Assembly (NCBI RefSeq): GCF_014279815.1
Contig: NZ_CP047941.1
Span: forward strand, 1,364,001 to 1,428,000
DNA length: 64,000 nt
Direction: 5' to 3'
Source of the DNA: Synechococcus sp. NOUM97013
Lineage (GTDB): Bacteria > Cyanobacteriota > Cyanobacteriia > PCC-6307 > Cyanobiaceae
Shown: positions 13,594 to 15,738 of the stretch, in pieces
How positions within the stretch are numbered: position 1 is the first letter of the stretch
Layout: each line of letters opens with the position of its first letter
Position numbers and translations under genes: made by a program
Notes under the pieces: generated by a model
Told to the model about the DNA's origin: nothing
Seen by the model: only the letters and a program-made list of their open reading frames with translations
Databases searched by the model: none

Positions 13594-14733
13594 TCATGGA
13601 ATCTGGACATCCAAATCCATTCGATTATTGCCGCGATGGTTCTCCGCTTCGATCACGATCTCCTCGGGGTCTGCGATCACTGTGATCACCTGTTTTCCCG
13701 TTGGAAGGGGCAATGGCAAGGTGAATTCCTCATCATCACCTGCACTCAACCAGGGGATCCGGATGTAACGACGTGTGCTGTACCGGTCATTAATAACAAC
13801 GGCTACACCGACATCACTCACATCCATCTCGCCTGAATTCACAACGCGAAAATGAACGGATCCATTGTCATAACTCAAGTTTTCAATGGCCATATCGCTT
13901 CCGAGGGAACTGACGGACTGGAGTGGATACAACCAAAGCCGCTCCAATTGCTTGAGTCGAGTGGACGCATGTTCATGATGAAGATGTCCTCCGTAAGCCA
14001 GATCGGTGCTGCATCCATGGAGGTGCAAATGCGCACCTGGCTGCGGAACTGTGACGCGTCCTAGCTCAGGTTCGGTGTCAAAAAAACCACAGCAATCCCA
14101 GTGCATTGCACGTCCCAGATAACGGATTGGATCGATATTGTTTTCGGGTGGAAGTGGCGAGAGTCGATAGTGCTGCAACATGTCGTAGATGCTTTGACCT
14201 GCCCTTGAAGCCCCCGCTTCACTGGTGGCAACTTTCATGTTGCGCCGCTGCTGCCCCATGCAGAGCTTGGAGGCCACGGTGATCACCAATTCATGCCAGT
14301 GGGTCAACATCCGCACCCCGTAGATGGGAGCTATCTCAAGCATCCCGGAGCGCTGTCCTTGCGCAATCGCCTCAGCCACCAGAGTTTGGAGAGGCCTGTT
14401 CTCGATGGGGCCCAGCGCATCAAGCGTCACGGGGCGACGCAGGCTAGTTGCATCCCTTGTGAAGCACACATACGGGAAGTGACCACTTCCATCACCTGGA
14501 GTAAGCCGGATGATGCTGCCGTCGTGGGCGACACAACGCCAAATGGCAGATGTCGAAACGCTGTCCTGCAGAAAGGTCAGCTCCCCGTTGTCGATGCTGG
14601 TCGTGGTGCCAAGACCCAGCACGTCGCCTTTCAGCGGAATCCGTTCCAACGGGAGATGCTCGCGCACATCCCCCTGAATCAGGTCAGACACCGTGTTCGC
14701 AATGGTGAGATCGGCCACGAGAGTCAGTTGCAT
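13594..14733 (-). CDS. Acetolactate-decarboxylase-like protein with C-terminal CARDB-like domain
   Basis: The 379-residue product (ATG 14733; a TTG at 14778 would add 15 residues) has two parts. The N-terminal part resembles acetolactate decarboxylase (BudA): GDVLGLGTTTSIDNGELTFL matches the GLGT...DGEL region. HLHLHGCSTDLAYGGH contains HxH-x10-H (H237, H239, H250), the spacing of the BudA zinc ligands. From about residue 285 a beta-sandwich begins (VVNSGEMDVSDVGVAVVIN... EENHRGNN-like end) that resembles CARDB domains. A cytosolic ALDC would make acetoin; this one has no visible signal peptide and its substrate is not known. It follows the LD-carboxypeptidase on the same strand. Confidence 0.6.
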   Translation of the reverse strand: MQLTLVADLTIANTVSDLIQGDVREHLPLERIPLKGDVLGLGTTTSIDNGELTFLQDSVSTSAIWRCVAHDGSIIRLTPGDGSGHFPYVCFTRDATSLRRPVTLDALGPIENRPLQTLVAEAIAQGQRSGMLEIAPIYGVRMLTHWHELVITVASKLCMGQQRRNMKVATSEAGASRAGQSIYDMLQHYRLSPLPPENNIDPIRYLGRAMHWDCCGFFDTEPELGRVTVPQPGAHLHLHGCSTDLAYGGHLHHEHASTRLKQLERLWLYPLQSVSSLGSDMAIENLSYDNGSVHFRVVNSGEMDVSDVGVAVVINDRYSTRRYIRIPWLSAGDDEEFTLPLPLPTGKQVITVIADPEEIVIEAENHRGNNRMDLDVQIP

Positions 14734-14784: not shown

Positions 14785-15738
14785 TCAGGGCATCAGGCTG
14801 AGACGGCCACTCCTGCCATCCAGTTGCGCCAGAGCTCCCACAGGCAAGGCCTGGTTAGGGCGGCCATGTCCCACCGGCAGATTGAGCACGACGGGAATGT
14901 TCAGATCACCGAGGCGTTCCTCAAGGATCTCCTCCATCGTGAAATCACCAGGAAGGATGTCGTTCTCAGCCCAGCTAAAGCGACCGCAGCCCACACCTGC
15001 CAGGTGCTGCAACAGGCCTGCGCTGCGCCACTGAGTCAGCATCCTGTCCACCCGGTAAGGAGCTTCGCCCACGTCTTCCAACACCAGAATGGCTCCCTTT
15101 AAAGAAGGCAGCCAGGGCGTTCCGATCAGGTGGGTCGCCACTGTCAGGTTGGTCACCACAAGAGGGCCGCGTACGACCCCACCACGACACGGCTCACCCT
15201 GCAGGGGAGCCACCGGTCGCCCGGAAAGCAGATCCACCGTCCGTTGCCACTGGGCATCCATGCCGCCGCTGGATCCGTGGATCGCCCCCGGCAGGCCAGC
15301 AGCCCACTGGGCCAGTAGCAAGGAACTCATGTCGGAAAAGCCAAGACTCCACTTGGCAACTCGCGGAAAGCGAAAACCGGATTCGAGCACGCGGGCGGCC
15401 CCCCAGCCACCCCCAAGGGTGAGCACCGCATCGACGCTGGGATCACTCCAGGCCGCCGTCAGATCGTTGACCCGCTGCCGATCGGTGCCAGAGAAATAGC
15501 GCCATTGACGGGTGACAGCAGCGGGGATCTCCAGATGCCACTGCTGTTGATCACAACGGTCGCGCAACAGTTGAAGATCAATGGCGGGATCCATCCAGGT
15601 GCCAGGGTTCACAGCGCGGATGCGCGATCCAGGCTTCAGGGGTTTCAGCCTGCGCTGGACAGCCATAGCCCTAGGCGGGAGCAAGGCCGTGATGATCGTG
15701 GATGCCCCTGAAAGCAGCAGCGTCCGGCGGGTTGCCAT
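14785..15738 (-). CDS. LD-carboxypeptidase (peptidase family S66), exported
   Basis: S66 peptidases remove the terminal D-Ala from murein tetrapeptides. The 317-residue protein starts with [20 protein letters not shown], a Tat- or Sec-like signal ending near the AMA site. It then has the S66 pattern: LTLGGGWGAARVLE, SLGFSDMSSLLLAQW (nucleophile Ser), LVLEDVGEAPYRVDRML (catalytic Glu) and LNLPVGHGRPNQALPVG (catalytic His). The start overlaps the purQ stop region by one base. Its placement behind purine genes is probably operon convenience. Confidence 0.88.
   Translation of the reverse strand: MATRRTLLLSGASTIITALLPPRAMAVQRRLKPLKPGSRIRAVNPGTWMDPAIDLQLLRDRCDQQQWHLEIPAAVTRQWRYFSGTDRQRVNDLTAAWSDPSVDAVLTLGGGWGAARVLESGFRFPRVAKWSLGFSDMSSLLLAQWAAGLPGAIHGSSGGMDAQWQRTVDLLSGRPVAPLQGEPCRGGVVRGPLVVTNLTVATHLIGTPWLPSLKGAILVLEDVGEAPYRVDRMLTQWRSAGLLQHLAGVGCGRFSWAENDILPGDFTMEEILEERLGDLNIPVVLNLPVGHGRPNQALPVGALAQLDGRSGRLSLMP

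Follow-up and report, generated by a model that had tools for sequence, protein, structure and literature searches.

The window, that is, the whole stretch of 64,000 nucleotides of Synechococcus sp. NOUM97013 DNA analysed here, carries on one strand and in this order purS, purQ, a peptidase S66 gene and a gene that joins an acetolactate decarboxylase (ALDC)-like domain to a CARDB domain, with a class II fructose-bisphosphate aldolase gene facing them (all names except S66 were given by eye). The features of this locus, together with four canonical ALDC genes used for comparison, are listed in Table 1. In our alignment of the fusion proteins, the column of V6, which is a GTG codon in the window gene, holds Met in 11 of 37 rows. 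Accordingly, the true start may lie at 14718, giving a protein five residues shorter, and we regard the start codon as uncertain.

Table 1. Features of the fusion locus and canonical ALDC genes examined for an N-terminal segment
Feature	Position	Strand	Evidence or remark
ALDC-CARDB fusion CDS	13594..14733	minus	379 aa; intact, open ORF; alternative GTG start at 14718
ALDC-fold domain, residues ~8-276	13906..14712	minus	PF03306 sub-threshold, Foldseek, VIA-align, hhalign
CARDB domain, residues ~277-379	13597..13905	minus	PF07705 above cut-off; Z 14.5 to 3idu
E51 codon, ALDC Glu65 equivalent	14581..14583	minus	identical in 37/37; aligned to E41, E in 24/24 canonical ALDCs
T152 codon, place of ALDC catalytic Arg145	14278..14280	minus	T in 37/37; opposite R121, R in 24/24 canonical ALDCs
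K156 codon, invariant Lys, candidate arginine substitute (inference)	14266..14268	minus	37/37; 21/21 in wider alignment
Residues 157-210, stretch making the fusion ~32 residues longer than ALDC	14104..14265	minus	AlphaFold, hhalign, conservation
H237 and H239 codons, proposed zinc ligands	14017..14025	minus	identical in 37/37
H250 codon, proposed zinc ligand	13984..13986	minus	identical in 37/37
LD-carboxypeptidase (peptidase S66), neighbour only	14785..15738	minus	PF02016 and PF17676; Tat-like leader by eye
Canonical ALDC	L132:5339-6190	plus
Canonical ALDC	L131:5249-6100	plus
Canonical ALDC	L129:5715-6554	plus
Canonical ALDC	L136:5513-6325	minus

In the Pfam search, CARDB (PF07705) was matched at residues 287-364 above its gathering cut-off (E 9.7e-7, 29.4 bits against 22.7), and AAL_decarboxy (PF03306) at residues 12-92 below its cut-off (E 3.2e-4, 20.5 bits against 25 bits). 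The NCBIfam ALDC equivalog TIGR01252 gave 15.4 bits against a cut-off of 180.65, which places the fusion protein outside this curated family. Since both ALDC scores lie below threshold, the ALDC part is only suggestive by sequence alone. When all 37 aligned sequences were matched to Pfam at E 0.1, CARDB was found in 37 and AAL_decarboxy in 35. A PDB sequence search with the fusion protein or its alignment returned chance-level matches only.

The window protein was modelled twice with AlphaFold, once from a 37-sequence and once from a 21-sequence alignment; the mean pLDDT values were 86.7 and 87.4, and the pTM was 0.85. ALDC structures head the structure-search lists with both models. In the Foldseek search with the first model, ALDC 6inc came top (E 1.6e-8; TM 0.70, normalised to the target length), and rank 6 went to the CARDB domain 2kl6. 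In VIA-align, the two models matched ALDC 6j92 with Z scores of 19.5 and 19.9 (18.5-19.9 over the ALDC crystal structures) and CARDB 3idu with Z scores of 14.5-14.6 (rmsd 1.9 at Z 14.5), and the next enzyme fold after ALDC in the list was human PTD012/C11orf54 (Z 13.5-13.8). Comparison by hhalign of the fusion profile with 24 canonical cyanobacterial ALDCs scored 43.0, and 100 column-shuffled controls reached at most 27.8. Considering this margin and the leading position of ALDC in the structure searches, the resemblance to ALDC is not due to chance. Both the ALDC and the CARDB fold are present in the fusion protein as modelled, and the pTM suggests that CARDB has a fixed place on the enzyme domain. 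The initial annotation had proposed an ALDC-like and a CARDB-like domain in one ORF, and Pfam, the structure models and the profile comparison agree with it: the predicted fold resembles that of BudA, and the C-terminal CARDB domain is recognised both by its Pfam score and by its fold in the model.

For the analysis of conservation, we aligned the window protein with 36 relatives that are 56-88% identical to it. These represent 36 of the 52 other loci; the remaining 16 were for the most part duplicates of a gene already retrieved, with a few unneeded and one partial. Fusion matches without a locus, namely G062, G048, G032 and G081, the broken or partial G045, G035, G087 and G102 and a second G127 copy, were not aligned. 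The fusion protein contains GLGT at residues 40-43, N-G-E-L at residues 49-52 and the pattern H237-x-H239-x10-H250. The zinc triad and the GLGT/GEL motifs named in the initial annotation thus hold up, the triad being kept in every aligned relative, and loss of the ligands in close relatives did not occur. On the other hand, in every one of 10 settings hhalign matched the first two histidines of ALDC to H235 and H237, not to H237 and H239. Since H239 is kept in all 37 rows and H235 in just 32, and since the x10 spacing then fits exactly, we prefer H237 and H239 as the zinc ligands. Around the triad, 21 of the 46 positions in residues 211-256 are invariant over the 37 sequences; H253 and H255, as well as H188, are identical in all of them. 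Residues 157-210 are partly modelled with low confidence, yet C158, G160, R164, N165, Y183, L186, H188 and R190 within them are also invariant in 37/37. In a 21-row alignment that includes two relatives from other cyanobacterial families, E51, T152, K156, H188, H237, H239, H250, H253 and H255 are unchanged. These two relatives share 41% and 46% identity with the window protein and are about as similar to it in one domain as in the other. Accordingly, because distant relatives are similar in both domains and share the same invariant residues, the fusion seems to be old and to have been kept as one protein.

ALDC is a beta-keto-acid decarboxylase. In the Bacillus brevis enzyme, we take the zinc ligands to be His194, His196 and His207, with Glu65, the catalytic Arg145 and the C-terminal Glu253 as further active site residues; these numbers fit a single offset of 24 on L070. 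For the canonical set, we used 24 of 37 loci (four fragments and nine others were left out) and compared the tails of 19 of these 24 rows. The two catalytic residues to be compared with BudA fared differently. The Glu65 equivalent is retained as E51, and the arginine is replaced by T152, which stands opposite Arg145 in all 8 of the 10 hhalign settings that cover the region. Four residues downstream, K156 stands opposite a position at which 20 of 24 canonical ALDCs have K or R. After the last core strand, 18 of the 19 canonical tails carry the glutamate that corresponds to Glu253 by count on L070. In the fusion, CARDB starts at about residue 277, about the point where the canonical tail would begin, and a conserved glutamate at a distance matching Glu253 was not found in the fusion sequences, although a CARDB residue could sit there in space. 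With both models, the structural aligner carries all nine ALDC entries listed to residues 359-367, inside CARDB, which hints that a CARDB loop is placed where the ALDC tail runs.

As a separate observation, some canonical cyanobacterial ALDCs have about 42-52 extra N-terminal residues resembling a ribbon-helix-helix (CopG-type) DNA-binding domain. Pfam RHH_1 scored above its cut-off in L132 (20.9 against 20.5 bits) and just below it in L131 (18.3), and it was not found in L129 and L136. The N-terminally extended protein is possibly a DNA-binding ALDC fusion.

Homologs of the CARDB fusion in cyanobacteria, a point raised together with the original domain assignment, were found in 38 of the 201 genomes sampled from the family to which the window belongs, among which G035, G087 and G102 hold fragments only and G045 has the gene split in two frames. 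In a sample of the phylum, 14 of 386 genomes matched, three of them outside the window's family (G236, G308 and G317), and order-level searches added one further genome, G664; the fusion is present in two other cyanobacterial genera. A pattern scan of the genome contig collection, with patterns taken from a single protein, gave 23 loci, all titled cyanobacteria. Relatives of the fusion were found neither in plasmids, searched with the G308 protein, nor in viral contigs. Some copies are broken by an internal stop or a split frame, namely L107 (in G317), G045:C1:1618324-1619438 and a second copy in G127:C13.

We compared 43 loci of the fusion, some of which were fetched from two collections or are cut by contig ends. 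An S66 match occurs in 10 of the 43, and in 7 it is the immediate neighbour of the fusion. In L034, S66 and the fusion are separated by a gamma-glutamyltransferase gene, and in G141 by an ORF of 720 aa (L108:3942-6104, minus strand) without a Pfam match at E 0.01 or an NCBIfam match at E 0.001. The initial annotation had linked the fusion to the LD-carboxypeptidase beside it; with a match in just 10 of 43 loci, we rejected this partnership as a general rule. In a second large group, the fusion lies by gyrA (named by eye) and lycopene cyclase. Clustering of 42 loci (L053 was left out), in which pairs above 95% identity were ignored and shadow ORFs were included, gave clusters that cover 22 and 20 of the loci for these two neighbours. 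In G308 and G317, which belong to one other genus, the fusion follows an MFS exporter and a thiamine-diphosphate (TPP) enzyme on the same strand, with a gap of 107 bp in G308; the families were assigned from the G308 proteins, and in G317 by eye. The TPP enzyme of G308 resembles indolepyruvate decarboxylase, with a score below the curated cut-off. Confined to one genus, this arrangement is the only one of those seen that is chemically reasonable for an acyloin-type route. No partner gene common to all clades was found, the loci lying by purS-purQ-S66 or by gyrA/lycopene cyclase, neither of which is a metabolic partner.

From the fold, the triad and the Glu65 equivalent, a mononuclear metal site is to be expected, one that chelates a keto or hydroxy acid. 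Considering that the arginine is lost and that CARDB stands in place of the ALDC tail, we argue for a changed substrate and against acetolactate. Our preferred reading, which we hold tentatively and at slightly less than an even chance, is that the fusion is a zinc-dependent enzyme with the ALDC fold, located in the cytosol, and that the compound it decarboxylates is not acetolactate but another beta-keto acid, such as an alpha-hydroxy-beta-keto acid or similar compound. What we infer in this reading is that the protein binds zinc and works in the cytosol, and also its chemistry, its substrate and what CARDB does. In such an enzyme, substrate chelation and enolate stabilisation would fall to a metal bound by H237, H239 and H250, and E51 would serve as the acid/base. 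The ALDC arginine and tail glutamate may be replaced by T152 and K156, by conserved residues of the longer stretch, R164 and H188 among them, and by CARDB, which would form a fixed lid on the enzyme domain or a support for it.

The related human protein provides a precedent. According to excerpts of the commentary PMC12435205, C11orf54/PTD012 is a decarboxylase of 3-dehydro-L-gulonate, a beta-keto acid, with a three-His zinc site; it is conserved in eukaryotes and also occurs in some bacteria, and a function was assigned to this human member of the zinc fold only recently. Since C11orf54 acts on 3-dehydro-L-gulonate, as these excerpts report, acetolactate is not the only beta-keto acid that the ALDC/C11orf54 fold decarboxylates. 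A stronger form of the reading, in which the fusion would represent a third activity of this zinc fold, so far seen in cyanobacteria only, with CARDB built in as an intramolecular lid, replacing the ALDC tail and completing the active site, appears unlikely to us.

The missing ALDC residues could equally mean a different reaction. The fusion might use the same metal site as an ester or lactone hydrolase, a tautomerase or an aldolase-type lyase, which we consider somewhat improbable while giving it serious weight. The same excerpts of PMC12435205 describe in vitro hydrolysis of p-nitrophenyl acetate by PTD012, whose fold is related. The loss of the arginine and of the ALDC tail and the extra invariant residues H188, H253 and H255 would also suit a change of reaction. 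However, the physiological reactions of ALDC and C11orf54 are both beta-keto-acid decarboxylations, and no hydrolase context kept across clades was seen in the loci examined.

A true acetolactate decarboxylase, with K156 or R164 in the role of Arg145 and that of Glu253 taken by a residue from the longer stretch or from CARDB, seems distinctly unlikely. The shared fold, triad and Glu65 equivalent are in its favour, as is the alignment of K156 with a mostly basic position of canonical ALDCs; against it stand the uniform threonine at the Arg145 position, the tail glutamate without a conserved counterpart in sequence and the TIGR01252 score far below its cut-off. The distribution of canonical ALDC (PF03306), encoded separately in the same lineage, bears on this question from both sides. 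The PF03306 search found no other ALDC in 34 of the 38 fusion genomes, that of the window included (no match at E 0.001 in the latter), as would be expected if the fusion served as ALDC. However, canonical ALDC occurs in 31 of the 201 family genomes, four of which also carry the fusion, and in G064 and G082 both proteins are apparently intact. We also considered that the fusion replaces canonical ALDC; mutual exclusion was not borne out, the canonical gene being present in 4/38 fusion genomes and 27/163 others (Fisher p 0.46).

Gene context can be weighed in the same way. In eight canonical loci that we read, an acetolactate-synthase-like ORF stands beside ALDC in L130, L132 and L133 (by eye), with a remnant in L137. 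L137 (G181:C1:460000-471000) is a decayed acetoin locus that holds ALDC fragments only; the CARDB fusion is still present in this genome. The acetolactate-synthase-like ORF of L137 has just 120 aa and runs into one of the ALDC fragments. That G181 retains the fusion alone may be counted for acetolactate decarboxylation. On the other side, none of the 13 fusion loci read has an acetolactate-synthase-like ORF beside the fusion, except for the indolepyruvate-decarboxylase-like TPP enzyme just upstream of it in G308 and G317. A TPP enzyme of this type lies close to canonical ALDC in G064; searched with the G064 protein, a relative was also seen in the window's genome, outside the window (G000:C1:1010840-1012525). 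Across the 201 family genomes, the association of such an enzyme with the fusion is weak: it is present in 8/38 fusion genomes compared with 10/163 others (Fisher p 0.008), and in 8/31 genomes with canonical ALDC compared with 10/170 without (p 0.002), the related genomes being not independent in either comparison. Because the association with canonical ALDC is stronger and related genomes are not independent, we take a functional link between the fusion and the TPP enzyme as a hint only.

CARDB domains are often found on exported proteins and are usually thought of as adhesion modules. The initial annotation accordingly suggested an exported or adhesive protein, and a surface or periplasmic enzyme acting with the LD-carboxypeptidase on cell-wall material would suit the Tat-like leader of the S66 product whose gene precedes the fusion in the window. 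We find this very improbable: the ALDC fold begins at about residue 8, no signal peptide or strongly hydrophobic N-terminus was seen (maximum 15-residue Kyte-Doolittle mean 1.3), Pfam found no anchor or second surface domain in the fusion protein, and S66 adjoins it in few loci. Lacking a strongly hydrophobic N-terminus, the exported protein was set aside. Least credible of all is a non-catalytic regulator or scaffold derived from ALDC that binds a metal or metabolite, for which the ribbon-helix-helix-like segment of some canonical cyanobacterial ALDCs makes sensing roles of the fold conceivable, but against which it speaks that the triad, E51 and the residues around them are strongly conserved, as is typical of catalysis.

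In summary, the fusion represents a picocyanobacterial protein family in which the metal site is kept and the key catalytic arginine is not, and which is best read as a related enzyme with a different substrate. In the open-access literature, we found no report of a fusion of CARDB with acetolactate decarboxylase and, among the matches listed, no structural paper on ALDC. Domain-based annotation would name such proteins either "CARDB protein" or "acetolactate decarboxylase", and either name could mislead. Excerpts of PMC6776005 and PMC8955281 discuss picocyanobacteria as possible fermenters, and the fusion gene could be miscounted in these organisms as a gene of acetoin fermentation, although its product lacks the arginine of ALDC. 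A new activity, should it be one, would add a reaction to a small zinc fold and show CARDB used inside an enzyme.

Compared with known systems, the new element is the ALDC-fold/CARDB fusion as a variant; the fold itself is already known, and the system is not of a new kind. Over its last 103 residues, the protein matches CARDB (PF07705; PDB 3idu and 2kl6 of PF1109) in sequence and fold, and CARDB is present here in a single copy, on an enzyme fold and without a visible signal peptide. With C11orf54/PTD012 (DUF1907, PF08925; PDB 1xcr), the fusion shares a related fold, the three-His zinc site being that of C11orf54; unlike C11orf54, it carries a CARDB domain and has no DUF1907 Pfam match at E<=1. 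A PF08925 search of 146 genomes gave no match, and as the controls were equally silent, it is uninformative. On the one hand, the fusion is like ALDC (BudA/AlsD; PF03306, TIGR01252; PDB 6inc, 5xne, 6j92 and 4bt3) in fold, in the HxH-x10-H, G-L-G-T and G-E-L motifs and in the Glu65 equivalent. On the other hand, it differs from ALDC in having threonine for Arg145, CARDB instead of the Glu253 tail, about 32 more residues between the Arg/Thr position and the zinc motif, and family scores below threshold.
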